This document shows positions 6,588 through 32,500 of a stretch of DNA of 64,000 nucleotides, piece by piece. The first letter of the stretch is position 1, and every line of letters begins with the position of its first letter. A program made the translations under genes and the position numbers. Under the pieces are notes generated by a model. That model made no database searches. It was not told the origin of the DNA and was given only the letters and a program-made list of their open reading frames with translations. The DNA is from Anaeramoeba flamelloides (lineage: Eukaryota > Metamonada > Anaeramoebidae), in contig JANTQA010000012.1 of the NCBI GenBank assembly GCA_027625915.1, positions 1,581,001-1,645,000 of the forward strand. The letters are read 5' to 3'.

Positions 6588-8120
6588 TTGATATTGCTGT
6601 TTGTATTGATATTGCTGTTTCTGTTGATTAGGATTTATTTGTTCAAATTCTTGATAAATATTCTTTGAAAATTTTGTTCTTACTTCAGGGGAATTCATTT
6701 TATAGTCAACTAATAAATTCTGATTATTTATTTCATTCATCTTTTTCTTTTGTTGAACATTAGATTTAGTATTATTTTGTTGATTAAATTCATCATATTG
6801 TGAGGATTTTTGATTGCTTTTATATTGATTAGATTGTTGAGAACGGTTAAGATTCTCAAATTGTGGAAGTGAATTATTATTAATTGAAATTTCTTTCTGA
6901 TACATCTGATTTGGTAGATTTTGATTTGTTTCAATTGAATAATCTTGATTAATATTTTGTTGAAACAAATTTTTTGTAATTAGTAATTGTTGTTGAGTTC
7001 CCCTTCCTCTTCCTCTTCCTCTTCCATTATTAATATAATTTAAATTGGGAGATCTTTGATTATTTTGAATTACATTTCTTCCTCTTCCTCTTCCTTGCAC
7101 CCCTCTTCCCATTTGCATTTTGTTTTGCATTTGATAATTTTGATTATTTTGAATTAAATTACTTCCTCTTCCTCTTCCTCTCCCTTGAATTCCTCTTCCT
7201 CTATTATACATTCCTCTTCGCATTTGCATTGTGTTTTGCATTTGATAATTTTGATTATTTTGAATTAAATTACTTCCTCTTCCTCTTCCTCTTCCTTGTA
7301 TTCCTCTTCCTCTCATTTGCATTCCTCTTCCCATTTGCATTCCTCTTTCTCTATTTGTTGTGTTTTGCATTTGATAATTTGAATTATTTTGAATTAAATT
7401 ACTTCCTCTTCCTCTCATTTGCATCCCTCTTCCCATATTTGTTGTGTTTTGCATATGATAATTTGGATTATTTTGAATTAAATTACTTCCTCTTCCTCTT
7501 CCTCTTCCTCTTCCTCTTCCTCTTCCTCTTCCTCTTCCTCTTCCTCTTCCTTGCACCCCTCTTCCCATTTGCATGCCTCTTCCTCTTCCACCACTACTTT
7601 GCATTCCTCTTCCGTTATTAATAGAATTTAAATTTGGAGATCTTTGATTATTTTGAATTACATTTCTTCCTCTTCCTCTTCCTCTTCCTCTTCCTTGCAC
7701 CCCTCTTCCCATTTGCATTTTGTTTTGATAATTTGGATTATTTTGATTTAAATTTCCTCTTCCTCTTCCACCACTACTTTGCATTCCTCTTCCGTTATTA
7801 ATAAAATTTAAATTTGGAGATCTTTGATTATTTTGAATTACATTTCTTCCTCTTTCTGAACCATTCCCTCTTCCTCTCCCCATCTCAACATTAATTTGTG
7901 TTGTACTTTGGTTATAGTCCCCATAATATTGGTAATTTGGGTTTTGTGTTTGTTGTTGGTTTGTTTGTGTATACCCAAAGTTTGTTTGGCTTGTTGGATA
8001 ATAAGAACTAGATTTTGATGGGAAATATCCAGTACTTCCTCTTCCTCTTCCTCTACCTCTTCCTCTACCAACACTTCTTTGCATTCCTGATCTCGTTTGC
8101 ATCCCTCTACCTCTATTCAT
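2694..8120 (-). CDS. Large RG-repeat, poly-Q, acidic disordered protein with C-terminal zinc-knuckle-like domain (1808 aa)
   Basis: One uninterrupted frame from ATG at 8120 to TAA at 2694. Residues ~1-400 are RG/RGRG repeats alternating with N/Q linkers, a composition known from RNA-binding and phase-separating proteins. A poly-Q run follows at ~515-535 (CAG/CAA on the coding strand), then Glu/Asp/Asn-rich stretches with an EGEGEG run. An acidic module of about 50 residues beginning MMGDDNG and containing FDPQFGDFND occurs twice, near residues 1066 and 1405. A Ser-Asp/Ser-Glu run sits at ~1587-1616. The last ~200 residues are ordered, helical and basic, and end with a Cys-x2-Cys ... His-x2-Cys pattern (~1752-1783) that looks like half of a LIM/RING-type zinc site. 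An RNA-granule or chromatin role would suit the composition but is inference. No family was recognised. Confidence 0.85.
4780..4925 (-). repeat. Internal acidic module, copy 1 of the 1808-aa gene
   Basis: The DNA at about 4780-4925 and about 3755-3905 is almost identical, encoding the MMGDDNG...FGDFND...NETLQD segment of the same protein twice. Near-identity at the DNA level, in an otherwise fast-drifting gene, points to a recent internal duplication or to gene conversion. Confidence 0.85.
6500..6615 (-). repeat. Poly-glutamine CAG/CAA tract
   Basis: On the plus strand this is a CTG/TTG run (coding CAG/CAA on the minus strand), encoding about 20 Gln plus flanking Q/Y-rich sequence inside the 1808-aa protein. 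It is a likely length-variable microsatellite. Confidence 0.9.
7000..7870 (-). repeat. GGAAGA-type minisatellite encoding RG repeats
   Basis: The plus strand shows CTTCCT hexamer arrays (longest near 7485-7550) separated by ~80-100-nt units containing TTTTGAATTAAATTAC or a close variant. They encode alternating RGRG blocks and N/Q linkers. Units repeat at least eight times with small differences, so this is an in-frame expanding minisatellite. Confidence 0.85.
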
Positions 8121-8578
8121 TTTCTTTTATATTTGAAAATCTAAAAGAAAGGAAACAAAAAAAAAAAAAACAAAAAAATGAAATAGCTTATGAAAACAAT
8201 AGGTTTTGACTTACAAATTGAATTGTTGTTTCTTACAGAAATATTTCAAAAGTCTAATCGGTATTTCTTGTTTTTTTTTTTTTGTTTGAATCTTAAAACT
8301 TGTTTCGAAAAAAGGAAACAAATAATTTCTTTTTCAACAAATTCATTCAGTTTGTTTGAAACAGTTGTTTTATAAATACTTGTTGAATCAAAATTTTCTT
8401 TTTGAAAAAAGTGATATTTTAATTATAATCTAGTAAGACTTACTCTATTGACTTTAATTGATGAAAAAATAAAGAAAACCTTTCATAGATCCTGTGGGTA
8501 ACTAACGAAAAAAAGTCAAAACAAAGAAACAAAAATGAAAAACACTTTAATCTTTTCCAAATCAGCCTTCTTGAGTTC

Positions 8579-11921: not shown

Positions 11922-14900
11922 TTAATAGAAATGAAGTTGATCATCATATAGCCTACCAGAATCTGGAATTTTTTTCCTTAATCTAAAGAAGCAAATTATG
12001 ATGAAAACCAATGAAAATATTATTATACAAATAACAAAAGCGGATGGAATATGTTGAACACAAAGATCAAAAATATTTATATAAATGAACTCAAGGAGAT
12101 TTGCACAAAAATGACTAATCACTGATGGCAATGAAGAATGTGTTACAACCGCCAATACACCATATAAAATACCCATAACAAGCCTAAACATTATGGACAT
12201 TAGATTAAAATCTATATTAAAAAATGCATAAAAAAGAGTTGATGTAATAATCGCCTTATCGAGTGATTTGATGTGCGTTTCTAGCACCTGCTGAAAGAAG
12301 CCACGATAAATTAATTCTATTAGTTCAATTATTTATCCAAGTTAGGAGAAAATAATAAAATAATTTAAAAATAAATAAATAAATGAATGAAGAAAACGAA
12401 ACAAAAAAAAAGAAAGAAAGAAAACATAAAAGGAAAAGGAAAAAGACAAGAAGTAAGAACCAGTGAATGAATACAAGACGTGGTGGGATATAAAAATGAT
12501 TATTTAGAATTTTAAAATGAATAAAAATTTTCGAATATAAAAAATTTCTTTCTTCTTCTTCTTTTTTTTTTTTTAAATTATTGATTTTCTTTTCTTTTTT
12601 TTTATTTTTATGAAATACAATCTGAAAACAAAACAATCTTTGGAAAAACAAATAAACACTAAAAAAAATATGAGACTGTGTAAATTCTTTTAAAAATCAG
12701 AAATTTATTATTTTAAAAAATCATATTGTTTTTTATTATTAAAGAAGGGAGGTGATTCATAAAAATTACCTATTATTTACCGTTAGGGTTTCCAGAATTT
12801 AAAAGAATGGAGTAAAATCATAGATTTTATTCAATTCTTTTGAATTTTGGAAAATCGCCGTTAGCTTTTCTTGAATTTTCTGTTTATTAGGAAAATCAAT
12901 AGATTTTACGGATAAAACAGAAAACCTCAAGAAAAGCTATTCACTCTACGGACATTTTTCATTAGATTTTTTTTAATTTGAGAAATAAAACGAAAATTTA
13001 TTTAATTTTCGGTTAATTTCTCAAATTACAAAAAATCGTCCCGTTAGCTTTTCTTGTGTTTTTTGTTTATTTGGAAAATCAATAGATTTTACAAATAAAA
13101 TAGAAAACCTCAAAAAAACCTAGAACACTTCACAAATAAAACAGAAAACCTCAAGAAAATCGCTGACGGCTTTTCCAAAATTCAAAAGAATAGAGTTAAA
13201 TCTTTGATTTTACTCTATTCTTTTAAATTCTGGAAAAGTCAGGCACCCCACAACACTTGAAGGCACTTGGAGGCACTTTCTGAAATCCTAAATTTATTTA
13301 GAGTTTTTTTACCAGGGTGATAATGTAGGTAAGGTTATAAATCAAATGAAAGATTTTCTTTAAATAAAGGAAAAGGAGAAATAGAAAAGACGAATAGACA
13401 ATCAAGAAATTATTTTTATGGTTGAAAAAGCAAAAACAAAAAATTTACAAGAAAAAAGAAAAAGAAATTTAAAAATAGTTTATTAAAAAGCAATTTATAA
13501 AAAATAATAAATAAAAATCCAATGCTATTAGTTTAATTAAGGTACACCCAAAATAACAGACACAATTCTCTTGGCTAATTTATTTTAGTTTGGTAGTTGA
13601 ACATGACAGTTCATTTGGTAGATTGTAGTTTAATTGTTATTATTTCTTTTTTTTTTTGATCTCATTTTTAACCCTTGAGAATTTTTTGTTTTGCTTTTTA
13701 TTTTTTTATTTCCAAGTTACTCAGAATTTCATGTTTCGGTATCTCATTATTAGCAAGTAACCACTTGACCTTTCCACTTTCTAATCCCTTTCTTCATATT
13801 ATAAAGAAATTCAATCAAGGAAAAAAGCCAAAAAATAAAATTATTCAATTTTTAAAAAATTTATTTACTGTTTGAAAAAAAAAAAAAAAAAAAACAGATT
13901 TACTCTACGAACACCACCAATATTTATAGTCATGTGAAAGTTTTTTTTATATATATTTCAGTTTTAATAGAAGAAGCGATATCAATAAAGCTTTTATTTA
14001 TTAAAGTTACCAATGTGGAAAAAAAAGATCAACACGATTGTTAATTGAGACATTAATAGAATCACAGAAATCACAGAAATCACAGAAACCTGAAAATGAA
14101 AAGTAAAATCAATTAAAAGAAGAAACCAATTAGATTCAAAGAATAATTCATTTTGTTATTCTCAATCAAACAAATGAAACCAATTTAGATCACCTTTTAT
14201 ATTTTGAAATTCAATTAGCCCTTTTCTTGATCTCAAAAATAGTCAATTTTTTCAACAAATTTTTCATAATTGATCAACCAAAGAAAAATCATTATCAAAA
14301 GATATTATTATAAAAACTATTATTATGATTGAATACTCCCTTTTCTCTTGAATCTTTTATTTTTTCTTTTATTAAAAGATCTTTTTTTTTATTTTTATTT
14401 TCTTTAAGGTTTTCAATTAGAAATTGTGTTGAACTTTTTTTTTCATTTTCGCTTTTTTTTTACATTTTCACTTTTTTTTTCATAATGATTCGTATATAAT
14501 GGTTAAATTTTACCCCAGAAATATGTTATTTTTTCAGAAATTCAACATTATTTAAAAAAATGTGGAAATTAGTTCTTCATGGATATAAAAGATATTTAAA
14601 ATTTTGAAATAAATATTTTATAATTTTTTTAAAAGTTAAGCTTTAAATTTGAAATTTTTAAATTTAAATTATTGAAAAAAAAATAACGGGCATGAAAATA
14701 AGCCCCCAGACGTTATTTTAAATTGTTAATATTCTGAAAATAGTTTTGTGATTGCTGAATTATTTCTTTTATTTAAGAATCAAACTTTGAAAAGTATAAT
14801 TATCTACTTATTAGAATGATGATTAATCAAAATTACACTTGTTCAAAACAATATTCAATCATTCAAAAATAAGAATAAAAATTATCATTGCCAAAACTCA

Positions 14901-16849
14901 GAGCCAACCTGTGTAAAAATCTATTTTTTTTATCAAAACATATAGGTCTAACCTTCGGTTATCACTTAATTAAACGAATATCCTAGATATACTCCCACTT
15001 TAATGAACTTTAGGAAGATTGATTACTGATTTCATAAAAAATTTGTTTAGCTCTAAAAAGGATTTGGCTTTAAAGTTTCCGAATATTAACAATAAATAAT
15101 TTCCAAATTTTAACAATTAAAAATCTTTTCCTGACTTATTTTTATAACAGGGATTTTTTTTCAATACTATTAGAATTTAGGCTCTGGTCTTTTTTCTATC
15201 TAAAAAATTTTGCTTGTATTTTTATTTTGCTGTGTATTTATAGACACATCCAACCCTTAAAAAATGAACCATTGCCAAAAATTATTTTTTCATGTATCAG
15301 ACTTTATTTTAACAATTTTGCTGACTATTATTCAACTGTTGTCATATCTTGGAGCTTGCAATAATTGGGACCAAGAGCTGTCAAAAAAAAAAAAAAAAGA
15401 AACACCAACCCACTTTGGGGTTGAGGAATAGTATTAGTTTAATAATTGGGTTCTACTGTTATTTTGATATTCAACGTGAAACAATTTTCACTTAATGTTT
15501 TTATCTTTTTCAGGATTTTGAGTTGTAATTTTAAAATTCCGACTTAAAAAACAAAGAGCATTTATCTATATTGACATCTTGGCTAAGAAAATTGAAATTA
15601 AAATGAGTTAATAAAATTAAAACGAATTTCTCTGAATAGTGATCGTTATTAAACGAAAAAAAGATAAAGAAAAAGAAGTTAAAAATTTTTCCCATTTAAC
15701 CCAAAAATACGAGTAATTAACTTGAAAAAAAATTTGTTTTATAACTCTCTTCCTTTTTAAGAAATGTACAAACATTCACCCTTTATGTAATTTTGCTTTG
15801 TTTGGGTTGGTTTGCCAAATATTCGAATAACATCCCAAAACGCAAAATAAGAAAAAATCGCAAGAAATAAATAAAGAATAATAAGAATAATAATAAGAAT
15901 AATTACCTTCAGTAATAGCGGGAAGCAGAACAACCATAAAAAATCCACAAAAAAAGAGGGGCGCGGAATCAACAACAAATATATCTGGCTTTATTCTTTT
16001 TTTTGAATAAATACCAGCAAGAACAGCAATGAAAAAAAAAAATGTCATACTTAATGAACTTATGAGTGATCCAACGACGCACCAAAAGGAATTCGACATC
16101 CCTTTATGGAAACGAAGCCAAGATGTAATTAAAAATTTTTTTTTATGGAGATAATACAATATAAATGACAGTGTAAGAACATTACAAAGTGCAAACCAAA
16201 TAAAATAGATTAACTTTGGGCCGTTTTCCTCTTTTAACAGATAATAGATTCCAATAGTAAGTAAGAGCGCTACGACAAAAGAAATAATGACTATGATCGT
16301 AGATTCAATTAGGCTTGGTGATTGAACTTGTGTTTCTGTGGGGAAATGTGTTTCTCCAAAATAGGAGGTTTGCTGGTATAGTAATGGCTGCTCTTGTGTG
16401 CTTGATTTGGTTTGGTGTTGTAGTTGTGTGCCTGAGAATTCTTTTTCAAGTATTTCTGTTTCTTTATCAGAGTGAATAATTGTTTCTTCTTTTTCCTTTC
16501 CTTTTTCTTTTTCTTTTTCTTTTTCATTTTCGTTTTCCTCGTCTATAAAAGAATTGTTTTCAATTTGGATTTTTTTTTTGTCTTTTTGGAGAAAAAGGAT
16601 TTTCTCGATTTCACTTTCGCTTTTGTTTTCAGACAATTGGGATTCTTCTTTTGTTGAGAAGTTTTGAATTTTAGGATCATTGTTTGAATTTATTTCATTA
16701 AATGAAAGATCGGATCCACTTGAATTTTCTTCTTCATTATCTTTTTGAATTGCAATTTTTTTTTCTTGTTTCTCGTTTGGTTGTGTATTTTTATAACTTG
16801 ATAACAAGGAACCGTTTGGAATTTCTTCAGACGAAATACTTGAAGTCAT
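11922..16849 (-). CDS. CPBP-family (CAAX-like) intramembrane protease, two exons, 445 aa
   Basis: Exon 1 is 15907-16849 and exon 2 is 11922-12316. The donor at 15906 reads GAAG|GTAATT and the acceptor reads CTAATAG|AATTAA, so the codon G+AA completes ITEELIYRGFFQQ, the EExxxR signature of CPBP proteases. That junction falls exactly inside the motif, which is strong proof of the splice. Residues 1-~175 are an acidic, low-complexity cytosolic tail (EKEKEKEKGKEKEE). Hydrophobic segments follow from ~180, with the Glu-Glu motif at ~314-315, a FYAFFNID segment where the family usually has FxxxH, then SHFCANLLEF (the HxxxN motif), and a last membrane helix. The second-motif His appears to be Asn, so activity is uncertain. 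CPBP members include the Rce1 prenyl-protein protease; whether this is Rce1 or another subfamily is not decided. Confidence 0.85.
12317..15906 (-). other. 3590-nt intron of the CPBP protease gene
   Basis: Begins GTAATT and ends AACTAATAG, with a TCCTAAC branch-like motif ~30 nt before the acceptor. It holds a hairpin cluster at 12783-13255, GGCAC-rich spacers near 13245-13290, and otherwise AT-rich sequence. No coding exon is needed between the two halves because the protein motif joins directly. Smaller introns in this window are 95-480 nt, so this one is greatly expanded. Confidence 0.75.
12783..13255. repeat. Hairpin-cluster repeat, copy 1
   Basis: At least five palindromes of 55-65 bp follow each other. 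Examples are TTCCAGAATTTAAAAGAAT with its partner ending TTGAATTTTGGAA at 12790-12854, and a similar one ending near 13237. They are separated by linkers of the type CGTTAGCTTTTCTTG and AAAACCTCAAGAAAA. The same palindromes and linkers recur at 29940-30360 and, more decayed, at 17620-18020. Right of it lie several GGCACTT repeats. Confidence 0.8.
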
Positions 16850-18229
16850 CTCAAATTAGATGAAAATGTGAAAGTTGGTTTATAGTTTCAAGGAAAATTA
16901 GAAAAAATAATAAAATTATAAGTTATTTGCAATGAAAATTGTACACTAACCAAAATATATTCTAAGTTCTTTATTCTATTTTTAAATTCTTTTTGTTTTC
17001 AAGATTTTAGTTTTTTTTTGTATTTATTTATTTTTTGTGTTTTTTCCAATATTTCAAAAAACAATTGACGCTAATAAAAAACTTCAATATTACAAAAGAG
17101 TTTATATTATAATGTGTTAACATTTAAAATGTTTAATCCCCTTTAATAGATTTGAACAATTACTGCTAGTTATGCAAGGCATTATTAATAACGATTGTTG
17201 AATTTATGAAAAAATTGTAATAAAAGATCAATTTGAAAAGGTCAAATTAATAAAGATAAAAATTAATCATGAAGAAGTTTATATTGATAAAATTTTAATA
17301 GTTATTAAATGATAATAAAAACAATAATATTCTTTTAATAAAGTTAGAATTCAAAGATTAAAACTAAATAATAATAATAAAATAGTAAAAGATTGTAAAA
17401 TACTTCTCAATAGGTTTAAAATCAAAAATCAGAGCAAATAAATAAATTTGTTAATAATATTATATTTAAAAATTTAAAAAAATAAATGAGTGTCAACAAA
17501 ATATTTTGTAATTTGTGTGATATTGATTATGGTTAATAGAGTGTATCGGATTCTTAGAGAAACTAGCCAGCCCCAACAAGGTTCAGTAATATCTCTAACC
17601 CAAATAGAATTTTGGGAATTACCTTATATTTTCTTTATTTTCTTGTAGTTTTCTATTTTATTTGTGAAGTGTTGGAGGTTTTTTTGAGTTTTCTATTTAT
17701 ATATAAAATTAATAGATTTTCCGAATAAACCTAACAAAAATCTATTGATTTTCTAAATAAAGAAAAAACCGAAGAAAAACAAAATGTGTTTTTTTATTCG
17801 TAATATCGGAAAATTTTCTAATGTTTCTTATTATTCTTAAATTGAAAAGATTGTTAATCACAGGTTTCCAAATTCTGAAATTAAAGTGTGAAATATAATA
17901 TTTTAATCAATTCTTTTAAATTCTGGAAAACCTAATGTACATATCTAGGTTTTCCAAAATCCAAAAGAAATTGAATAAAACCAAAGATTTTAATTTATTC
18001 GTTTAAATTCAGGAAAATTGAATTTTAAACAGTAATCTTAAAGTATTCTTTCTTTCAAGAAAAAAAAATTATCAAAAATTTTGAAAAAATAATATGTGAA
18101 TCAAAGTTTAAACAGTTTTTAAAATAAAAATAGTGTTTCTTTTTATAGAGAAGACCTAAATATTAATACATCAAAGTATCTAAAAATATAGGATAAGTTA
18201 ATATTATATTGATTTCTTAAATATCTCTT
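16850..18229. other. Intergenic region upstream of the CPBP gene
   Basis: It contains the probable promoter of the minus-strand CPBP gene next to 16850 and a decayed hairpin cluster at 17620-18020. A weak coding-like stretch lies near 17220-17310 (plus strand, KVKLIKIKINHEEVYI), too short to call. Confidence 0.45.
17620..18020. repeat. Hairpin-cluster repeat, copy 2 (decayed)
   Basis: Shares with copies at 12.8 and 29.9 kb the palindromes based on TTTTCCAAAATCCAAAAGAA / TTCGTTTAAATTCAGGAAAA, the element AATAGATTTTCCGAATAAAC, and the TTTTCTATTTTATTTGTGAAG segment. Arms are less perfect than in the other copies. It is intergenic, unlike the other two. Confidence 0.65.
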
Positions 18230-19035
18230 ATTCAAAACAGAAATTCTCTATATGAAAGATCATATGAAATATTTATTTTAAAAAAAGAAATTATTTAATC
18301 AAAGTTATATTATCAAAAATACAAAAAATTTAATAAAATTTCATGAAAATTAAGAAAAATTTTCAACTATTTGTATAAATAATTTAAATTTTACTGAAAA
18401 TAACAAGAGTTTAACTTCAGAATTGATTCATATTGGTAGAATATTTGGGCAGTAAATTAGTCATAGGTTGTTACACAAAAGAAAAAAAGTATATACTTTA
18501 TCGTAAACAAAGATTATTAGATACATTGAGAACGTATTTTTTTTTTTTTTTTTTTTTTTTTGATATTGTAACCAATAATCAAAAATACTTAAAATATTTT
18601 CAATCATTTGAAAATACTTTTTTATTAAGCTTATGAATATTAGTGTATTTGTATTTTCTTTTTAATGATAAAAATGGAATTTTATTGTAGAATATTATTT
18701 TTTAGCTGGAATCATCACAAAATATGAAAAATTATCAATTTTTAGCAGCAGTATTCAACCCATTTTGTACAAAAAGAATTATTAGTAAAGATGTATGTTA
18801 TATTTCTGATCTTTGTAGAAGGTATTGGCAAATGAGAGGAATTGTCGATGTAAAATCAATTAACATTGTGTATAATTATAAATAATTTTGAGAAGATAAT
18901 TGCGACATTATAAAGTATGTTAAATCATACAGAGTAATATCTAATTGTCTATCCACAATCCTTACCCAAAATGACCCAAACCTAACTTTATTTAGCACTC
19001 CATTCCAGCAGAAGAAATTAATATTAATTTAATCT
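18230..19035 (+). pseudogene. Broken plus-strand coding relic, family not recognised
   Basis: Several stretches read as protein on the plus strand: NNKSLTSELIHIGRIFG (~18402-18452), VIGCYTKEKKYILYRKQRLL (~18459-18518), NYQFLAAVFNPFCTKRIISK (~18730-18790) with SDLCRRYWQMRGIVDVKS after it, and DIIKYVKSYRVISNCLSTIL (~18904-18963). They are interrupted by frame changes, a long T run and a few stops. The composition is clearly coding, but I cannot name the family; a transposase is possible. A right-hand neighbour is a TTAA-element copy ending near 20535. Confidence 0.4.
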
Positions 19036-19317
19036 AAAAAAAGTTAACACTGCCTACAAAATCTACCATAGCACATACCAACACAAATATAACCTGGCAT
19101 GCAATTAAACTTACTCTAATAAGTACTCGCATATCCAAATGAGACCAAAAACTCACAAATAGCTCAAATTCCGAAATCCAAAAAAAAAATATTTTGTCTG
19201 AAAGCTAAATTGATATTTTACAATAAATGTTTATCTTTGAACTCACCCATTTTCTGAAAATTTCTTCAAAAAGTGTTTTTAAGTAGTTAAAAAATTTTTG
19301 AGTATTTTCCATTTTCA

Positions 19318-20535
19318 TGAATATTTCAAACACTAAAATCAATTAGTAAAATAGTACTAAATAGTTGATCCTTATCAATTATAAATGATCAATTATATCA
19401 GCAAAAAACGCAACATTTTGAAGAAAAAAATATTGAATTATTTTCAGACAAATTTAAAGGTTATATCATCAATATTCAGACTTTAAAGTTTTAAAATATC
19501 TTGTTTACATTTGTATCAAAATTCAGATTAGTTGCTAAAAAATACTATTTTTTAAAAAAAAATTAAATTAATTAACATTGATTATTTTGGCAATTCATTT
19601 TCACATATTGGAAATATATCGATACTAAACCCCAATTCAAAATTTTTAACATACCAAAATTCAATTTTTGAAAAAAAAAACTTATTTAATCAATTAAAGA
19701 AGATTTCCCAAATTAGAACCATTCACTAATTAGAATGCTACCACTTTTTTATAAATTACAATATACCACAAAAGAAAAAATAAATAATTATCAATACAAA
19801 TAAATCATTGGGTGTGTTAAAAATTTTGGAGAGAGCAAAACAAAAAAATTGATTGGTAAATTTGTTTAAAAGTCTATTAGAATTATTGATCGATCAAAGG
19901 TTAGATACTACCAACTAATTTTATTTGAGTTCTTCCATTTGGAACAACTTGACTTTAACATAATATCAATTCTTCAAAAAAAAATTGATACAATGAAACA
20001 AATTACGCAATTCAAACAATGAAATGAAAACAAAAACTAAAAGATGAAAAAATGATTTTCATATTTTCCAAAAATCAAAATTATCTCCAATTTCAATGGA
20101 ATTGTATTATTGTGATTGTTTGGAACGTTTTAGCTGTGTGGAAAATTTTGAATTTTAGTTTACAACCAACCTTGATAAAAAGGAAAAAAAGTAATTCATT
20201 TTTGAAGATTTGTGTGTTAATGATTATTGAAAAAATCTTGAAATTAAAAAAATGAAAAAATAGTTACTTTTTTAAAGTTCTAAATAAGAATTCTTAAAAA
20301 TACTGGAATACTATTATTTTAGGTTTTTATTTTTAGATTTGTTAAAATTAATAAAAAAATTTACCAAATGAAAATTTTTTAATTGTGATTCATTAGTAAA
20401 AAATGTAATAATTTATTTTTCAATAATATTTATAATAGATTTTTTAGATTCACTTGAACCATGGAGTTCTCATATCGTTAATACCCAGTTACAACATACT
20501 TTAATTCTAGACGAATCTGTGGTGACACCAATCCG
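19318..20535 (+). mobile_element. Degenerate TTAA-family DNA transposon copy
   Basis: Two blocks, about 19318-19570 and 20190-20535, align in the same orientation with the element at 33629-34376. They include ATCAATATTCAGACT..AAAG, GTAAAAAATGTAATAATTTATT, TTACAACATACTTTAA and the right end GGTGACACCAATCCGTTAA (GGTGACGCTAATCCCTTAA in the better copy). The segment between them, ~19640-20190, is absent from the 33.6-kb copy and instead matches 63.1-63.66 kb in inverted orientation. The left end is not resolved. Confidence 0.6.
19600..20050 (-). repeat. Dispersed repeat family A, copy a (inverted relative to the others)
   Basis: About 450 bp that is the reverse complement of 63200-63660. Family A also occurs at 22985-23345 and 61680-62010. 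The most conserved part contains ATTGATCGATCAAA and TACTACCAACTAATTTTATTTGAG. Translated on this strand's copy it gives fragments such as RYYQLILFEFFHLEQLDFNI, matched by minus-strand fragments of the other copies, so the ancestor was probably coding. Confidence 0.7.
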
Positions 20536-20682
20536 TTAATTTGTAATCTTTTTCCACAAAATTTAAAATTCAATTACCAGTTTTATTTGAAATAAAAAGC
20601 TTTTTAAATTCAACAAGAATTAAAATAATAGATAAATAAATGAATAATAGATTTTTTTTTTTTTTTTTTCTTAGAAAGAGTA

Positions 20683-21813
20683 TTAATCTTGCCAAAAAAA
20701 CTGTGTGGGGCAATTGTCACTGCTTTCGTCTTCTGAGATTTCCACCTTATTTTTCCTTTTTTTCTTTTTCTTTTTCTTTTTCTTTTTTGATTTATGTGAC
20801 TTTTTCTTTCTGGATCTTTTTTTAGTCTTTTTCGATTTTTTAGATTTTTTCTTTTTTCTTTTCAATGCCTTTGCAAATTTTGAATTTAGATCATTTTGGG
20901 GGATTTGGTTGTTTAAAAAGTTTGACTCTCCCTCTGTTTTTTCTGTAATAGCTGTTGTTGACAATGGGACTTGATTTTGGATCTGTCTTTGTGGATTTAT
21001 TTGGTCTTGATTGTAATTCAAGCGATTGTTTATTTGTCGAGCCTGGTTTCCAGAAGGAGAAGGTGTGAAACCAAATGGTAGAGGGATATTAAAAAGCTGT
21101 CCATGGGGCATACTAAAATCTGGCACAAAATAAATCCCTCTACTCCTTAAGTTTCTCAAATTCTTATTATAACTATTGGGTGTACTGACTAATTGGTTAG
21201 TTTGGGAACTTTTAGGTGTGGAGAATTCTGTTTGGCCGCTTTCCCCTTTCTCCTTTTCTTTCTTCTTTGTTTTATTTTTCCTTTTCCTCTTTGACTTTTC
21301 TTTTTCTTTTTCTTTCCGTCTTTTTTGGTGCTTTTGTTTTCGTTTTTTTTCTTTTTCTTTTTCTTTTTCTTTTGTTTTTTTTTTTGTTTTCTTTGTTCTG
21401 TTGCCGAGTCTCTGGTTGGACGCTTCAATTCCTCGGACTAATATGTCAAGCGACGAAGAGTTTAACTGATGTGAAAGATCAGTCGCTCTTGCTTCTTCAT
21501 CTTCTTCATCGTCTTCTTCGTCCTCGATTGTATCCAGAGAAGGGTTTTGGTAAATTTCTAAGGTTTTGTAAAGATCGTCAAAGCCAAGGTTTCTGATCGC
21601 AGTCATAATATGATCACTATCCAATTGCTTTTTTTTTTGTTCAAATGTGACATCTATGGCTTCAGATGCAATAAACATTAGAAATTCCGTTGCACACTCA
21701 ACCATTAAGAGTTTTGATGTATGGGATAGGGATCTTTTCCCCACTTTTTGATTCATGATTGAAGTCATACACTTGGCGACATTATGTACAGGTAATTTTT
21801 CATGATCTTCCAT
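20683..21813 (-). CDS. NF-YB/Dr1-type histone-fold protein with long basic tail (376 aa)
   Basis: ATG at 21813, TAA at 20683, single exon. Residues ~6-92 form a CBF/NF-Y-type histone fold. They begin LPVHNVAKCM, continue VECATEFLMFIASEAIDV (the alpha-2 core; NF-YB has ECVSEFISFVTGEA and Dr1 has NCCTEFIHLISSEA) and end DSDHIMTAIRNLGFDDLYK. NF-YB pairs with NF-YC and NF-YA on CCAAT boxes; Dr1 (NC2-beta) pairs with DRAP1 to repress TBP. The opening LP..NV.K.M favours NF-YB, while the CATEF core resembles Dr1, so I leave the subfamily open. An acidic stretch follows at ~96-109. Two Lys-rich runs come later (~142-190 and ~315-366), around a hydrophobic PHGQLFNIPLPFGFTPSP patch. Human NF-YB and Dr1 are ~200 residues or less, so the tail is an expansion. 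Confidence 0.88.
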   Translation of the reverse strand: MEDHEKLPVHNVAKCMTSIMNQKVGKRSLSHTSKLLMVECATEFLMFIASEAIDVTFEQKKKQLDSDHIMTAIRNLGFDDLYKTLEIYQNPSLDTIEDEEDDEEDEEARATDLSHQLNSSSLDILVRGIEASNQRLGNRTKKTKKKTKEKEKEKEKKRKQKHQKRRKEKEKEKSKRKRKNKTKKKEKEKGESGQTEFSTPKSSQTNQLVSTPNSYNKNLRNLRSRGIYFVPDFSMPHGQLFNIPLPFGFTPSPSGNQARQINNRLNYNQDQINPQRQIQNQVPLSTTAITEKTEGESNFLNNQIPQNDLNSKFAKALKRKKKKSKKSKKTKKRSRKKKSHKSKKKKKKKKKKRKNKVEISEDESSDNCPTQFFWQD

Positions 21814-22791
21814 AAGACAAAAAGATTTTTTTGGTTTTGAATTGTAAAAAAAGAAACCAAAAATTAATAATAAGTTTAAACAATAAAAAATGGTATTTCT
21901 TTTGGCGTTCTTGGGCTATACTCTAACAAACAATTTGGATATTTTTTGTGAATACACTACCAAAAACAGTTCTTTTTTTATGTTTTGAAACTTTATTATG
22001 AGGATTTTTTATGAAAGAATTGTTTAACGTAAAGTTTTTTTTTCTATTTTGGTTTAAAAAAATTTGGTTTAACAATTTATGGTATGAGTAGACAAATGAA
22101 TTGAAAGTGAAATATAAGACTAGAGCACATATGTTATACTTCTTACTTTCGTTTATTTTTCCAAATACCTTCTACTTGAAGATATGGATTACTTAAGAAG
22201 ATAGTAAATTGTACTATTGACAAAATATTATTTCAGAAAAGATTCAGGACTATTCGAATTTTATGCTCTGTGAGGGTTGAAATAAAATACTATAAACAGA
22301 AAAAAAGCTTTATAAGACTTTGGATTGAGGAAAAGTCAAAATATTGCAATTTTTGGCTTTTTTAGATTTTGTTTGAAAATCATTTATTGTTCAAAAAAAC
22401 TTTTTGAATTTCCTGAACAAAACAAGGCAAAACTAAAAAAGCCATTTTTTTTGATATTAAGAAAATGCCACCCCACCTTCTTTTCAAGTATATTTATACC
22501 CTCTCGCTACACTCGAACACACTTGAAAAGAAAGTGGAGTGACATTTTCCTAATGAAATTTTTTTCTTCGAAATTTGTTGAGAATAATTTGGGTTTTATG
22601 AAGGAAAATTGTTTTTCGCCCAACTCAAAATTTTCCAAAATAAACTAAATTTTTCAAGTTAGCAAGATCCCTTAGATCAAGTTTCTTTTAAGTCTATAAA
22701 TATGTTACTAGGTTGAAAAATAGTATTCACTAACCATAAAAATTCGACTAATCCTTAATCTGTATTTTAAAATAAAAAGAGTATGTCGATT
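21814..22791. other. Upstream region of the histone-fold gene
   Basis: Should contain the promoter of the minus-strand gene just right of 21813. No further gene is supported. The plus-strand frame at 22325-22648 has no recognisable content. Confidence 0.5.
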
Positions 22792-22984
22792 TTAAGGGAG
22801 TAGCTACACCATAAGACATGATAAAAATTTGAGAGAGATGAGATAAGAACATTTTATTTTAGTGGCGTGTGATCGTAGATTCTCTAAAAATTTTTTTAAA
22901 AAAATTATTTGATATTTTTTTTTTAGTAATGTTCAACAATAAAAAAATTGAGATTATATTGATAGAATAGTTTTTTTTATTATT

Positions 22985-23345
22985 ATTTTTTTATTAAAAT
23001 AAACTTAATTCCATTAATTTGGACACATTTTAAACAGTTGAAAAAATAACAATAACATGATTTACATCCAATTCGAAATTAATTTTAATTCAACAAACTA
23101 TTTCATTTTTTGTCTTTTTTGTTTTTGTTTTCATTTACAATTTTTCAGTTACTTAATCTGTTTAGTTAGATCTGAAATTTTTTTATAGATGGTTGATAGA
23201 ATGTTAGTGTTGAGTTTCAAAAATTGAAAAATCCACATACAACCTGTGCATGGTATCTTATCATTTGATCGATCAACCATTGTTGGTGTAATTTTAACAA
23301 ATCTACCAATATATTTTTTGTTCAAACTCTTTCATTTCAGCTCGT
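22985..23345 (+). repeat. Dispersed repeat family A, copy b
   Basis: Matches 61680-62010 and 63110-63480 in the same orientation: AAACAGTT...AAAATAACAATAA, TTACTTAATCTGTTTAGTTAGATCTG, GGTTGATAGAATGTTAGTGTTGAGTT, and CATTTGATCGATCAACCATTGTTGGTG. On the minus strand the last part reads FVKITPTMVDRS, comparable with FVEISPTIIDRS in copy c. A helix-turn-helix of a transposase is a possible origin. Confidence 0.7.
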
Positions 23346-23910
23346 TTCCTTATTTTGGGTACACTTGTTTTGATTTTTTATTTTATATTGTTTTCTTATA
23401 TTTGGATGAAAATGATTACTTAAAAAACCATTAATATTATGTTATTTAAATATGGTTTTATATTACATTAGGGAAAATATAATAAATTGAGTTTTTGTTT
23501 TGACTATTTTTTATTTTCTGATGTATACAAATTTTAGGAACGGGGGTTTAGTTTTTTTTTTGGGAGAAGATAATTTCAGATTTTTTGAATAAAATTTGTG
23601 GCTATTTTGTGTTTTAAACTTTGATAACATATAATCATATTCACTTCTCCAATTCCACTAAACGCAATGATTTAAAATCCTAATAAGTAATAATTTGACT
23701 TAGTTATTCTAATTTTGGAATTCTTCTAGCTATTTAAGTCCCATTTATGTTTCCTTTTATGATTATTTCAATTTTAATGTTGTTGTTCATTTTAAACAAA
23801 ATCCATTAATCCCAAATGCCACTAATAAAAAAATATTTCTAATTGCTTTATCTTGTCAGGATTAAAAAAATCTCAAAAATGATGTAAAAATAAAAAATGA
23901 AAAAATTAAA

Positions 23911-24004
23911 TGCCACAATAGAATGTTGAGAGAAGGATAAAAGAAAAGTTATTCAACTTTCAAAACACTATTTTTTGCAATTCAACTCAACATTCTATTG
24001 TGGC
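23911..24004. repeat. Foldback with perfect 20-bp arms inside the TTAA element
   Basis: TGCCACAATAGAATGTTGAG at 23911-23930 and its exact reverse complement CTCAACATTCTATTGTGGCA at 23985-24004. It sits near the right end of the 22796-24163 transposon, either as a subterminal repeat or as a nested small MITE. Confidence 0.85.
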
Positions 24005-24184
24005 AATTTCTTTGAGACCTGAAAAAAAATTTAAAAATCTAATGAATGAAGTACTTTAAATAATAAAAATCAATGAGTTACAACCAAAATAAAAAATGTT
24101 ATTTTCTGATCCTCTTCAGAATTGCAAAAAAGTGAAAAATTTTCCTTTACCGTGGCTACTCCCTTAAAGAAGATTTATAAATTA

Positions 24185-24565
24185 ACTGAATAAGGAACTG
24201 ACAATAAAAGATAAATTAATATGGTATTGGTCTAAAAGTTCTATTATTATAAAAGAAATTCTAAAATTAATGAATCAAATCAGATTTGTCTTAAAAATAG
24301 AGTATATACCTTGTTAAAATTCTTTTTTTAATCAAAAAAATAAAATATTTCAAAATTATTGAAAAAATTACAAAAAATTTTGAACAAATTGCTTTCCTAA
24401 TTTAAATTTAACTAAAAATATCAAGGATTTTACATTCTAAAATTAGTTTGGACTTAGGTATACCATTATGTAGTGAATTAATCAGTGTATTGGAACAAGA
24501 AGAAAAAAATCTTAAATTATATTTTGAAACATTGATTATAGTATATTGACATGAATTATTTTGAT
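24185..24565 (+). pseudogene. Plus-strand coding relic next to the TTAA element
   Basis: Two coding-like segments: about 24186-24310, containing LTIKDKLIWYWSKSSIIIKE and LMNQIRFVLKIEYIP; and about 24441-24548, containing SLDLGIPLCSELISVLEQEE and KNLKLYFETLIIVY. Composition is far from random for this DNA, but no start, no joined frame and no family were found. It may be exons of a host gene or part of an older transposon. Confidence 0.35.
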
Positions 24566-26574
24566 CAATGTTTTAATTTTTTTTCCCAAAAGATAATTGT
24601 GTAATTATTATCACAAGAATACAATTAAACTGGCAACTCAAACTCATTTATCAACTTTGGGGAAATAAGTTTATCTTTTTTAAAAAGAGTTCATTTTTAC
24701 ACATGAAATTTTCAGTAAAAAGTCAGGATCCTTTTTGTTTCGATTTATCTTTCAAAAAAAAAAAAAAAAAATTTATCAAACAGTTATTAATTTGATGAGA
24801 TATCACTTTTGGCAATTTTGGAGAGTTGAAATGAACAAATAATACTAAAAATTTAATCTCATTTTCAAAAAATAACAAGAAAAATAAATATATTATTGAA
24901 CGTTCGAAGATAAGAAAAAAATGATCATTTATTTGATTAACAAATATTTAAATAATTTTTTGATCTTTAAATGATTGGTTAATATCCTTTTCCAAATATT
25001 AAGAGTTTAAAAAATAATAAATTGTTATTAACAAAATCAATTACTTGATAATAACTATAATTTTTATTATAATTAATATTATTAATTTAAATAACATTCA
25101 TTTGTTTAAAAATAATGAAAAAAATTTTCAAAAAAATTAATTTAAAATAGTTCATAAAAATTTTAATTATTGAGTTATTTTTCTATAATTTGTATTATTT
25201 TTTTTTTCAAAAAAACAAATAAGATTCCACTCATTATCATTTTGAAATTAAAAATAAGTTCAATCAAATAATATTTCCTTAAAGTAAGGAAAATGTTTTT
25301 TTTTTATACTGACAGTTTCACTTTTAAGGCACAAACTTTCAACGAAATTTAAGGCACGTAAAAATTCTCAAATTAAGACACAAAATTTGTAATTTTAATT
25401 TTTACAATTTATTTTTACTAGAATTTGAATTTTGTGCTTTAATTTGAGATTTTTTTTGTGCCGTAAATTTCGTTGAAAGTTTGTGTCTTAAAAGTGAAAA
25501 TGACAGTATTTTTATCTTTTTCATAAGTATAGAAAAATAAAAATACAATATTTATTAAACTAAAAGAGCATTAAAATGAAAATTTCAAAGAAAAAGAAAA
25601 GATGATTTTTTATTTCTTTTAAATAAAATCGATTTAATAAATGATTTTAATTGTATTTTTTTTTTGATTTTTTTTTTTTTTTTTGTATTTGAAGTCAATA
25701 TAACAACATTAGAATTTTCAACCACAATTTATTCTATTATTCCTATTTCTAACTTCTTAAACTTATAAATTTATTTTAATTTTTAACTTGTTTAGAATAA
25801 TTTTTCATTTTATATCTTTTTCTTTAATTCAATTGAAAAGAAAACTAGGATAAATGAACACATAAACTATTCATCAAAATGCCAAGTTAAATAATTTTTT
25901 CAAAAAAATGAAGTTATACTATTCCTGAAATAACTTTTCAACACCAAAACTTATTGATATTTTTTTTTCTTGTAAAATTTCTCCTTTTATACCACAATAA
26001 AAAAACATCAACTTCATCGATTTTATATGAATATATAAAACTAAACTTTAAATCAATAAAATTGAAAAATTTTGCATATTTTTTCAAATAGTATCCCAAA
26101 TTGAAAAAACAATTTCAAAGATCTGAAAATATTTTTTTTTTATTTTCTTTCAAAAAAAAAAATTCATTTTGTAAAATAATTTCAGTTAAACAATAAGCTT
26201 CGAAAATCCTATTAATTGGTTTCTAAATTAGTCAAATTTCATTTAAAAAAGATGTTATCTTTTTAAGTTTTTTTTTTTTTACTTTTTTCTTTTAAAAAAA
26301 CAAAAAAAATTCCAAAAATACCATTTTTTTTGTGAAAAATTATTTTAATCTGTAAATAAAAGATTATTAACACCTAAGCCAAAATCAATTTTTAGTCTGT
26401 GTATTGTATAAAACAAGTCCATTAAGCACACATGCCCTTAAAAATACTAATTTGTGAAAAGGAGAAATATAACTATATATAATTCTTAATTTAGTTATTA
26501 TTTTTAAAAGCAGAATAAAAAATAAAATTGTATGATGATATTTTTATGTTAATTTAAAATTATTATTTTTTGTT
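24566..26574. other. AT-rich intergenic region
   Basis: Apart from the TA-flanked foldback at 25309-25506, I see only A/T-rich sequence. The right end is the 3' flank of the F-BAR gene. Confidence 0.6.
25309..25506. mobile_element. TA-flanked foldback MITE, 198 bp
   Basis: Arms of ~85 bp start CTGACAGTTTCACTTTTAAG on the left and, read from the right end, CTGTCATTTTCACTTTTAAG. Both continue ACACAAAC or GCACAAAC, then TTTCAACGAAATTTA. TA lies on both sides (25307-25308, 25507-25508). This is the form of a Tc1/mariner-type MITE or foldback. Confidence 0.85.
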
Positions 26575-29500
26575 TTAGTCTTCAAATTCTGTGGTTGTGT
26601 AATTTTCAGGGACTAGTCCAATATCCCCTAATTCGTTTTGTGCTTTAATCCATCCATCAAATTCTTCTAAAACTATTAATTTTTCACCCTCGTGTATGCA
26701 GAGAACTTCTTCGTCTTCTCCTTCGTAATCATAAAGTGACATTACATAGACAAGTTCTTCTTCTTCACTTGTAGTTTCTTCTTCATTCGACTGTTCATCG
26801 CTCTCATCATCTATCAGTTCTTCTTCAATATCTTCATCGATCCGTTCCTCTTCAATTTCATCATTTTCTTCATCATTTTCACTTTCTTCATTTTCTTCGT
26901 CATTGTCAATTTGTTCGTTTTGTTTTTTCAAGTCTTCATTTTTTTGATCTTCTTCCTTTATTTGATCTTCTTCTTGTTTTCTTTCTTTATTTGCAATATC
27001 CTTAAGTTCATTAGGTATCTCAATAACTTCAAAATCATCATCATCATCAATGTTTTGTTTAAAGTTATTAGAGTTATTGTTACTATTCTTATTAAACTGT
27101 GAATTTGTGGAATTGTCTGTTTTATATTGTAAATTTTCAATACCAAGTTTTTCAATTGTTCTTGTGTATGTTAAAGGGAAATACCCAATTTTTTTGCCAA
27201 TTTGCCCTTTCCACCAATTATTTTCGTTTTCCTCTAATACATAAATAAGATCACCGGAATTAAATGAAAGTTCGAAATTATCTTCATCGCCAATATATGG
27301 ATATACTGCTTGATGGATTTTCATTGATGGTGGTAATGGTGCTGGTTCTGTTGTTTTTGTGATTTTTTTTTCTTTTTTTGTTTTTGTTTCTGTTGTAATC
27401 ATTGTTAATTTTGAACCTAATCTTTTTTTCCATTTTTCCTTTGCAATTTTGACTTGTTTTGAGTTATAATGTTTTCGCTATTTTTTTTGTTGGTTTGTTT
27501 AGAAAAAAAATTATTTGATAAAAAAATGAAAAATATTTTATGAGATTATCGAATGTAAATAGATAGGTAGAGAAAACGGTAGATTGATATTCAAGATGGG
27601 GGTGATAATATTGTTTTATAAATTTGTAAACAAACAATAATTTAAATTTTAGTTTGTAGGAAACATTTATTTTATTTTGAATTAAATAAAGTTCCTATCA
27701 TTGATAAACTACTTTAAAATGATTTATTAAAACCCTAGTATCATTATAAAAGCAAAAAATTTCCATTTTTTTTTGTCATTTTTTTAAATTAACTTTTTTG
27801 GAATATCTTTAAGTTATAGTTTTGAACTAAGTGTTTGGCTAGGTTTGAATAGTAATCATTTTTACATTTCAGGCAACCTTTTGTTCATGGAGTTTTTGAA
27901 AAAGGAGATTGAAAAAAAATGACAAAAAAAATGTCCATTTTTTGCTTTTATACTGATACTAGAGCTTTAAGATGAATAATTAATATTTCTATTCAACGGT
28001 AAGATGCCATTTTTTTTTTTTTTTTGAAAAGATGTAAATTGGATTCTTTAAAAAATAATTTAAGTAAGAGTTGAATAATTAAAAAGGTATAACTATGCCA
28101 ATTGTAATATGTCTTTTGCTACAATTTTGGTATTTTTTATTTTTTCTAATTTCCTGTAATTGATACCAAAAATAATATTGACTTTTATGCGAATATTAAA
28201 AATTGAATAGTAATTGCTAACAGATAAACTAATAAAGGAAAAAAATACCAAATAGAATAAACTGAAACAATTTTTGCTTATAGTGGAAACATGTTTAAAA
28301 AACTATTAATTTGGAATTGAATGAAGATTACCTGTCGAAATTTGAATTTAAAAAGGTGAAAAAAAGTTTAGAGTAATTGCTTTTTGATAATAGGAGATTT
28401 ATCTATTATATATTTGTATTGAAAAACAAAATGCCTTGAAATACTACAATTTTTCGAAACACAAGATGGTATTTATTTTTTTTTGGTATAATTTTTTGGA
28501 AAACCACTCTGAACAATTTCAAATTCTAAAGGAAAAAACGTTATTTATTCAAGAGTAAGACTGGAAAACGGTATTTAATTGCTTTTTTTTTGAAATGAAA
28601 TTTTCTATAGAAAAAATTTAAATCTTTAATAAACATCGGGGATTTGGTACTCATTTCAATTGATGAGATTTACTTTCCGGGATTATTTATTGCAAATGGG
28701 GCTTAAAAATTACAAATACAAGCCGGAAAGAAAATCATTTATAACTTAAATGTTTAGTAGTAATTAGATTTTATCTTTTTTTGATTGAAGAAAATAATAA
28801 AAAAGAGAAATTTAATTTCTCAATACATCGAAAGAATAGTTTAATTTCCATTTTGGTTTTGAAATTGTTTTGTTATAGTGATGTGTGTTCCACTCGGTAC
28901 AGAAAAAAAGGAGTTATATTTTTAAAGAAAAAAATTCAAATCAAATTTCAATTTTGCAAAAAAATAAAATGGTTTTTCTTTATTTATTTGAATTTTGGAA
29001 GAAAAAATAGCAAACTCTAACCCTCTTTGACTGATCTCTTAATTATTTTGATTTTAGTAACTAAAAAATAATTAAATATTGAAAATATTTTTATTTTTTT
29101 TTCAATGTTTAGCAAAAGATTCTGGGGGTTTGTTGAACCAAAATAGTGAATCAAGTATTGGGTTTAAACAATATTCAAATAAAATTTAGATGTTTATATT
29201 CATTTAAAACAAATTCTTTCAAAAAAAAAACATTGCTCCCCTATATTAAGATATATATATCGTTTTGAATTAAAATGTATTCAAAATATTTTAATATTCC
29301 AAAGTAAAAAAATATAATTATTTATCATTAATTTTTCCATTGAGTTTCCTTTTTTTTGTCTAAAAAAGAATTTATTATTATTATTTTTTTTTTCATTGAA
29401 AACTATAGAAGAAAAAAAATAATCAGAGTTGTGGTTCTAATTTGGTGGGGAAAGTATTGAAGAAGAGAAATGGTGGTTACAATTTAACAACTTCTTATAT

Positions 29501-32500
29501 ACAATTGCCATTTATTGAGATAAATTTTTGGTGAGTTTGGTAATAATACCTTGTACTAGGATCAACTTCTGTCAAGTATGGCATTATATCAAATGGGCGG
29601 TATCATGATGGTTCTAAAAAATTTTTTTGACATAATTGTCATTAAAGGAAACAACCAATAATCCCTGAAACACACAGGATACAAAAAAAAACTTTTAATT
29701 AAGTTTTTACTTTTTTTTTATTATTTTTTACAGTCTTAAATTTCTTGCCTTTCTTTGTCTTTTTCTTATCATTGTTCAAAAATAGTATTGTTTTTCATTT
29801 TTTTTTTTAAAAGAAAAGCAATTCTATGAGTTATAATTTTGGGTAAATTATAGCTATGATAAAAAACTCTGCATAGATTTTAATGTTTAAGATAAAGTGC
29901 CGTAAAGTGCCGTTAGGTGCCGTAAAGTGCCGTTAGGTGCCGTAGAGTGCCTAGCTTTTTCAGAATTCAAAAGAATTGAGAAAAATATTTGATTTCACTC
30001 GATTCTTTTAAATTTTGGAAAAGCTAACGACGGTTTTCTTGAGGTTTTATGTTTTATTTGTTAAGTTTTCTCGGTTTTTTTGAGGTTTTCTATTTTATTT
30101 CCAAAAGTAAAAAAAAAACCGAACGAAAACCTCTTGATTTTCCAAATAAACAGAAAAGTCCAGAAAAGCTAACGAAAATCTATTGATTTTCCAAATAAAC
30201 AGAAAACTCAAGAAAAGCTAACGGCGTTTTTTTTTAATTTTAGAAATAAAAAGAAAATTTCTTTAATTTTCTTTTTATTTCTTAGGTTTTCTTTTTATTT
30301 CTTAGGTTTTCTTTTTATTTCTTAAATTTTCTTTTTATTTCTCAAATTAAAAAAAAACTAATGGTAAACAGGTTTTAATTTTGTTGAATCGCCTATCTTC
30401 TTTAACAATAAAATACAAAAAGAATGAAAAAATAAAAACAAAAATTAGAATTTTTTATTATGAAAATTTACACTTTGTTCTAAATCGATGAAAAGACTAA
30501 AAAATTTTTAACTCATAATTTAAAGTGAACAACAACTTTTGGAATTTAATTTAATTTATATAATCCACTTTTTGATAACAACTATGAAAACAAACCTATT
30601 TTGTTGATTTGATTTTTTGAAAAAATCCAATAATCTGAAAATATTTTATTATTATTTGTTGAAAAATAAATGGAACAAAATTTTCATTCAGCTTTTCAAA
30701 AAAAAAAAGTTTTAAAAGTCATTTAAAATTTAAAATTATTTAATTCCTTAAAGAGGCTTAGATTATTAATTTTCTTTTTAGTATTGTAGACTTTTGTGTT
30801 TTATTTTAATTCCTGGAATGGGATTTTTTTGGAAGGATGAATGAAAATTTTGATCTTTTTATTTTTCAAATGTTTGATTATTTACCAAAGATATTTGTTT
30901 TTAAATTATTACGGATCTTGAAATTTTCAAAATTAATAAACTGAAGAATAATTAAAAAAAAGGATGATGAAAGAGTTAACTAAAAAAATTATTAAAAAGA
31001 AAAAGGAAAAAATGAAGAAAGAAAAAAGAAGAAATGAGAAATTGGAAAGAAGAAGGAGAAAGTGAAAGAATTCTATACCTCGTTAATATATTTTGTTATT
31101 GGGATGTCTTGAATTTCTTCAGGACTATTTTTGTGTCGATTCACAAAATTATTTATTTCAGCTTTTGGTTGGATTAAGTTGATTCGGTTGACTAGTTTGC
31201 TACAGTTGTCCTTTGTGGTTGTGTTAATTATTTGAAGTGTGATTAAAAACATTGTCCAGTTTTTTTGAAGAAAATCAATTCTGTTTCTTTCTAAAATCTC
31301 TAATGATTTCAAAATCTCTTCTAATTTTGGCTTGACTCGATTAGAATACTTTTCTAACTGCTTCCATGCTGTTTGGTATTCTTTATAAAGTTGTTTATAA
31401 TCTCTTTGATTTGTTTTCACTTTATGTTTCATCTTTTAATTTGTTAGCATTTAGTTTATGAAGAGTGGGTTCATTAGTGAATTATTGGAATCAATAAAAA
31501 GATTTTTTTTTTTGAATTTTGTTTTTGTTTCTTGTGAAATTTCTGTCTTTGGTGGGGACAAGAAATTTCTTTAAAAGAGAAAAAAGATAAAATAAGAATA
31601 AAAATAAAAAGGTTATTACTTTTGTTACTTGGTTTGGTGATTTTTTTTTAATTCTTCTAAATTTTCAAGTGAATTAAAATATAATTCTGATTTTTTGAAT
31701 GTTTTGGCTTTTTTTTTATTAACAACCAACAAATGGTCATCATATTGTTTTTTTATTTTTTTCCAGTTTGAAAATAACTAAATGATATATGTGAAAGTAA
31801 ATTTTAAAAAGAATTCAAACAAATCAATTGAAAAAAGTTGATGGATAAAATTTTGTGAAAAAACAAAGAAAAAAAGGTTTTGTTGTTTTTTTGTTACTTT
31901 TTCTGTTTTTGGGGTATAGCTTTGTAAAAAGGTTGTTGTTTCGTTGATCATATTTTTAATAAGTGTTTGTGTTTGAGACTGATGTTCAGAAGAAGTTTCG
32001 ATTTGTAACTTAAAGGCAATCCAACATTTTGATACTTCTCTTTATATTTTGTGTTTTTTTTTTCATTTGTGATTTTTTGTTTCATTTGTGTTTTTTTGTT
32101 TTATCACAAAAAAAATTAAAAAGAAGAAAAAGATCGGGAATAAAGATCGGTTTCAAAAAAAAAAGTAAAAATTTGTTTTCAAAAGAAAAAGATCTGTTTA
32201 TAAAAAATTACGAGGTATCAATTTGTGATTGTTGAAATGATTTGGTTAATTTTTCTAATTGTAAGCTATGTTTGTTTGTTATGTTTTGTAAATTGGTAAA
32301 CACTGTGAACATTTCTTTCATATTTAGAATTGATTCGTTGGAGTGAGCATTAAATGATTCTGGTTTGTCCCATAAATTTGGAAAAAAGCTTTCATTTTTC
32401 GTCTTTGGTTCAATAAATTGAATTTGTGTGTGGTGATAAAAAAAAAAACAAAGGATTTAGGGTTACAACAAAAAAAAGAAAGAGGAATAAAATTTATCAT

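Follow-up and report, generated by a model that had tools for sequence, protein, structure and literature searches.

Strings of palindromic modules, likely passengers of transposons, in the genome of Anaeramoeba flamelloides

In the genome of Anaeramoeba flamelloides, the same few palindromic modules recur, joined into strings, at many dispersed places, and three of these hairpin clusters lie within the window considered here (the whole stretch of 64,000 nucleotides at positions 1,581,001 to 1,645,000 of contig JANTQA010000012.1, assembly GCA_027625915.1). Direct reading, a repeat search and models of the hairpin arms all recover the three clusters, with modules in common, as a sequence-only reading of the window had proposed; that reading was also right to see a single family spread through the genome, and to take each cluster for hairpins in a row and not for a two-ended transposon. 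What, then, is such a string, and how did it come to be in so many places? We think it likely that the clusters are copies of a short mobile element, non-coding and non-autonomous, that is assembled from palindromic modules and carried as a passenger on host transposons. Its plan is a GTTAG head, then hairpins of three types (F, S and K, sometimes telescoped through a nested piece, M), then CTAGG and a tail of GGCACTTGAC-like decamers. To the host genome, the string is probably of no use.

Modules, joins and spacing

The sequence examined comes to 293 kb, made up of the window, 20 10-kb stretches surrounding good matches and 9 shorter loci, and is not a random sample, the 20 stretches being centred on the best matches. 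With a palindrome taken as two 28-bp arms with at most 5 mismatches and a loop of at most 24, this sequence holds 122 palindromes, 116 of them inside 39 clusters that occupy 8% of it; a Markov copy gave 3. One of the six palindromes outside the clusters is the window's cluster 2, a decayed partial copy that fails the cluster rule. Single K and S arms used as nhmmer queries gave no matches, and position-specific matrices were used instead for four arm types (F, K, s and S), for M and for a linker, L, with every locus written as a string of modules. Three shuffled copies supplied the thresholds of the arm models, which are passed by 161 F, 149 K, 73 s and 153 S arms (the s and S models overlap); the edges of several cluster parts were placed by eye.

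The palindromes, first put at 55–65 bp, are longer than that: K measures 73–74 bp and F mostly 71 bp, each with two 34–35-bp arms and a 3–4-nt loop. The third hairpin type, S, keeps two unlike arms, s and S, which differ by about 2 nt; the sequences CGTTAGCTTTTCTTG and CTCAAGAAAAGCTA, read earlier as common linkers, are its outer arms. What actually links the modules is either a 7-nt GCCGTTA-like piece or the ~26-nt CTAGGCACTTGACGGACACTTTTCGTTAG-like piece, L.

When module order was shuffled across the 39 clusters, three joins stood well above expectation: F then S (24 joins, 6.5 expected), S then L (25 against 7.4, with a maximum of 16 in 2000 shuffles) and M then S (25 against 4.8). All 25 of the S–linker joins have one relative polarity. 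Spacing is regular as well, with gaps of 7 nt at 21 of 24 F–S, 9 of 10 S–F and 8 of 16 K–F joins, and exact-linker gaps at 24 of 25 S–L joins (−2), 15 of 17 F–L, 15 of 22 L–K and 7 of 15 L–F (−2). Module order is thus biased and polar but not fixed, with F–S–linker as the recurrent motif. The sequence-only reading had named palindromes that are independent and in no fixed order as the result that would tell against it; in these 39 clusters the order is indeed not fixed, but the modules are not free of one another either.

Might each ~70-bp palindrome instead be its own tiny miniature inverted-repeat transposable element (MITE), with the clusters as nested or adjacent pile-ups? Locus L049 has a single F hairpin flanked by GTCG-like sequence on one side and GGCACTT-tail sequence on the other, and locus L050 one F-like hairpin; K hairpins are found within S/M arms, and the K–F and L–F gaps are looser than the rest. 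Random nesting, however, would not give the near-constant F–S and S–linker gaps or their single polarity, and nearly all of the palindromes are inside clusters. We therefore regard the pile-up as rather improbable. An ordinary satellite or minisatellite with local expansion, the former also suggested earlier, is scarcely credible. The decamer tail and the 20- and 49-bp tandem runs of cluster 3 do speak for it, but in the 39 clusters the arrays are short (0.18–1.06 kb) and dispersed, without long head-to-tail runs of near-identical monomers, and two units from the same array resemble each other no more closely than two from different arrays.

How common are the strings? A genome-wide search with cluster 1 gave 7,688 first-look candidates, 40 of which were scored. 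Beyond the stretch centres there are 8 further clusters in 200 kb, and in the 64 kb of the window 2 clusters satisfy the cluster rule, with the decayed one in addition; from these two densities we arrive at about one cluster per 20–30 kb, which over 254 Mb would amount very roughly to ten thousand. An exact search of viral contigs with a 25-base F arm found no match.

Three host repeats

In each of three repeat families, which we call X, Y and Z, the string sits at one fixed point; by our cut-off, X hosts 17 of the 39 clusters, Y 7 and Z 4. (All-against-all clustering of the flanks lumped all 39 clusters into one group, because of low-complexity sequence in our view, and was replaced by reference flanks and a masked comparison.)

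X is 1.0–1.8 kb long with CAC...GTG-like ends, and in 8 of 12 two-ended copies the same 2 bp stand on both sides, although individual ends vary; this count leaves out clusters 8, 10 and 26 and reverse-orientation duplicates, and 5 further X clusters gave no usable end pair. CACTA/CMC transposons have CAC..GTG ends and a 2–3-bp duplication, and X, judged by its ends, would fit a DNA transposon of this kind. Z has a degenerate reading frame on either side of the string. Its 78-residue tail protein gave 5,053 first-look candidates and reverse transcriptase 1,306, with 150 scored in each case, and dozens of the reverse-transcriptase matches listed have open frames longer than 400 aa. At 4 places (matched by eye) a reverse-transcriptase match lies 520 bp upstream of a Z tail match with equal open-frame lengths, namely 596, 575, 468 and 483 aa, the last with a stop within the reverse-transcriptase match. 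Z thus appears to be a retroelement, with reverse transcriptase in frame with the flanking sequence. A Pfam search of three Z pieces found no family above cut-off; a single weak match fell below that level. Window clusters 1 and 3 are both surrounded by Y. Beside one Y-hosted string, at L034:4560-4700, there is also a short run of TATCGCGATAAT-like palindromes.

All three hosts also occur without the string. Y-like string-free copies cross the joined site in 23 of the 40 places listed, Z is string-free in 40 of 40 among the matches listed, and string-free X sequences exist elsewhere in the genome. We read five uninterrupted X sites and five uninterrupted Z sites directly, and in three of the five Z sites an open frame is kept across the insertion point.

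That the cluster is simply the middle of a single transposon is ruled out by the same strings in X, Y and Z. Might X-like transposons have contained the strings from early on, with loss from some copies and transfer elsewhere by rearrangement? X accounts for more of the assigned clusters than Y or Z (the sampling was centred on the best matches), and a GGAA repeat such as the one in L039 could mediate precise loss; against this stand the uninterrupted Y and Z versions and the open frames preserved across the Z point, and we give the idea only a slim chance. On the passenger reading, which we prefer, the string would have entered each host family once or a few times and then multiplied with every transposition of its host, and its modules would have been reshuffled where hairpin ends are shared, by recombination or by template switching.

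Several observations weigh against the passenger reading, and they should be set down together. No host was assigned for 11 of the 39 clusters. L–K joins (22 against 12.0 expected) fall inside the shuffles, whose maximum is 23, and K–F, F–K, L–F and K–L joins are near expectation. Of the seven Y copies, two pairs have longer flanks in common, which could mean duplication instead of independent insertion. Some grouping by host is seen among K units, for which 1 of 500 permutations was as extreme, against 117 of 500 for F units (cluster 7 was left out of X in this test). There is no consistent target duplication at X: GGAA stands on both sides in 1 of the 15 filled copies listed, and since it is exact in that copy only, we do not claim a 4-bp duplication; in 4 filled Z copies none was seen by eye. 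Precise loss from an ancestral string-bearing host would also yield string-free copies. Finally, no enzyme or autonomous partner was identified, and no search for one was made.

The window clusters, their genes and their folding

Cluster 1 (12786-13275) reads F, S, L, K, S-M-S, F, tail. Cluster 3, which with its decamer tail spans 29893-30358, is inverted relative to cluster 1 and, read in its own direction, has K, then s, s, S, M and S arms, F and the tail. The parts of the clusters and their surroundings are as follows.

12317..15906, minus strand: intron of an Rce1-like CAAX protease gene, containing cluster 1 (PF02517, GT/AG ends, exon join)
12740..12782, plus strand: Y inner left flank of cluster 1, GAAGG.GG.GATTCA..AAAATTACC (alignment of Y copies)
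12786..12856, no strand: F hairpin of 71 bp, cluster 1 (arm model and alignment A2)
12859..12938, plus strand: S hairpin with unlike arms (s>S<), cluster 1 (arm models; edges by eye)
12937..12964, plus strand: long linker L, CTA..CACTCTACGGACATTTTTCATTAG, cluster 1 (linker model; edges by eye)
12965..13037, no strand: K hairpin of 73 bp, cluster 1 (arm model and alignment A1)
13042..13164, plus strand: S hairpin with an extra M-S arm 3' (s>S<M<S<), cluster 1 (arm models; edges by eye)
13169..13239, no strand: second F hairpin, cluster 1 (arm model and alignment)
13240..13275, plus strand: 3' tail of GGCACTTGAC-like decamers, cluster 1 (edges by eye)
13276..13383, plus strand: Y right flank of cluster 1 (alignment of Y copies)
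17636..18019, minus strand: cluster 2, decayed, with S/M arms from 17636, an F arm at 17899 and an F hairpin at 17948-18019 (arm models, folding)
29760..29892, minus strand: Y right flank of cluster 3 (flank comparison)
29893..29951, minus strand: decamer tail of cluster 3, GGCACYYWAC, which is TAAAGTGCCG on the plus strand (Tandem Repeats Finder, 5.9 copies)
29954..30024, no strand: F hairpin, cluster 3 (arm model and alignment)
30030..30223, minus strand: S/M arms, cluster 3, including 49 bp duplicated in tandem at 30115-30223 (arm models; left edge by eye)
30228..30358, no strand: K hairpin, cluster 3, with a 20-bp tandem repeat at 30257-30348 that enlarges its centre (arm models, repeat search)
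30360..30440, minus strand: Y inner left flank of cluster 3 (alignment of Y copies)

The sequence-only reading had the clusters in two giant introns and one intergenic spot, and for cluster 1 an intron is supported. The intron is 3,590 bp long with GT...AG ends, a Pfam PF02517 match covers 11922-12287 in the downstream exon, and the exon join reads PAITEELIYRGFF (EELIYRG). The intron interrupts the codon for the second glutamate of EExxxR, which we take to be the motif of a type II CAAX protease, and because the join restores this motif the intron, read from sequence, is well supported. Cluster 1 starts 470 bp from the nearer exon, and the intron ends are untouched. A second giant intron finds no support at cluster 2, which begins 787 bp upstream of the ATG of the Rce1-like gene (16849, minus strand), where no intron is shown.

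Other repeats lie nearby. A separate dispersed repeat at 13407-13840, adjoining cluster 1, has an inverted copy, 77% alike, at 56348-56792. Long inverted repeats at 25306-25509 and 27727-27970 (82 nt at 89% and 72 nt at 79%) fall outside the F, K and S models, and an interspersed repeat of 1.2 kb at 22789-24000, unrelated to the strings, is 91% identical to L039:2827-4044. At locus L044, a Z element and a hairpin string lie between two exon-like open frames (2870-3433 and 7079-8152, about 3.6 kb apart) that have, by eye, a phosphofructokinase-type look.

Do the hairpins matter as RNA? Cluster 1 is predicted to fold at −182 kcal/mol (z −24, plus strand), as a single large stem, a consequence of the rough symmetry of the order F-S-K-S-F; z is −7.5 for cluster 3 and −3.2 for cluster 2, and for none of the three were any of 100 shuffles as good. 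K arms covary: across 65 of 67 units both sides have changed in 112 cells where 62.5 were expected (none of 500 shuffles), a signal that can come from symmetric subfamilies. F arms do not covary (27 cells against 35.2 expected, in the 54 of 72 units of modal length), and one F pair is unpaired in 44 of those 54 aligned units; the F arms, therefore, are not kept perfect. In a cruder count that took in all 72 F units, the two arms shared 36 deviations where 24.8 were expected (maximum 40 in 1000), with arm mismatch no lower (0.208 against 0.206).

Selection for RNA structure, for example as Dicer substrates or in intron processing, could draw on the intronic position and strong fold of cluster 1, on the K covariation and on the shared F deviations. 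The missing covariation and the standing unpaired position in F, the possible origin of the K signal in symmetric subfamilies, the decay of cluster 2 and the absence from the window of any Rfam family at cut-off make it very unlikely. Snap-back regeneration, in which the arms are copied from each other, was also considered: missing covariation and standing mismatch disfavour it for F, despite a small excess of shared changes among the 72 units, and the S hairpin likewise retains unlike arms. For K, with its symmetric subfamilies, it may still apply.

Known element classes and the closest systems

The strings sit poorly in the familiar classes. As terminal-inverted-repeat transposons or MITEs they have the wrong ends, a GTTAGG head and a GGCACTTGAC tail (short TGTC/GACA-like end matches occur at some Z copies and L050 only), and no constant duplication at X or Z. 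Helitrons have a 5' TC and a 3' CTRR after a hairpin, and insert between A and T with no duplication. Rolling-circle spread had been offered as an explanation, but by eye the ends of the strings and their targets in X (TATTGGAAAAT) and Z (TTGGAAGGTCC) are unlike a Helitron's. A foldback element, also proposed, has long terminal inverted repeats with sub-repeats and a 7–9-bp duplication, and nothing of the sort was seen at X or Z. The ends of cluster 1 are not splice sites, as an introner's would be. SINEs have a Pol III promoter derived from a known small RNA and a duplication of variable length; the window contains no tRNA and no Rfam family at cut-off. In the open-access literature, we found no description of such strings.

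Four systems come closer. Tetris elements are foldback-like, modular, rearranged and non-autonomous, with internal repeats (PMC4079207); the strings share all but the first of these traits, but where Tetris has ~220-bp tandem repeats in terminal inverted repeats, the strings end in a short head and a decamer tail. Introners of Amoebophrya are hairpin inverted repeats dispersed in protist introns (PMC7789003), a setting like that of cluster 1, but an introner is the whole intron and cluster 1 is a small part of one of 3.6 kb. Sponge mitochondrial hairpin elements are non-coding, AT-rich in some cases, and form single to multiple hairpins at many sites, and a lack of flanking duplications is cited for the double-hairpin elements of Allomyces mitochondria (PMC2800124). 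The strings, too, are non-coding, with single or multiple hairpins at many sites, but their genome is one of 254 Mb in 76 contigs with spliced genes, and many of them lie inside transposons.

The last comparison is with repetitive extragenic palindromes (REPs) and the bacterial interspersed mosaic elements (BIMEs) built from them: palindromes in high copy number that share a short constant head, GTAG, and form composite mosaics at regular spacing (PMC2817692), each REP being 20–40 bp long (PMC3733652). Our strings have the high copy number, a GTTAG-like head in most of the 39 clusters and modules spaced, modally, by 7 nt or by L. They differ in having ~70-bp palindromes of several types, with polarity, in a eukaryotic genome; REPs and BIMEs are bacterial, orientation alternates in BIMEs, and their enzyme, RAYT (TnpA-REP), is known. 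One might go further and imagine a nuclear system of REP/BIME kind, in which the polar palindrome string is a mobile class of its own, inserted by an HUH- or tyrosine-type nuclease that recognises folded single strands and spreading mainly via other transposons; we hold this as a tentative, minority possibility.

In the way they seem to work, then, the strings most resemble REP/BIME mosaics and the repetitive hairpin elements of mitochondria. Composite palindrome elements have been described from bacteria and organelles; here they are in a nuclear, eukaryotic genome, at thousands of places by our rough estimate. Their hosts include an element of DNA type as well as a retroelement, and both can be compared with versions that lack the string. 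The system thus permits a direct test of how palindrome mosaics originate and move: are the hairpins propagated by template-switch copying, and do they live as parasites on transposons?

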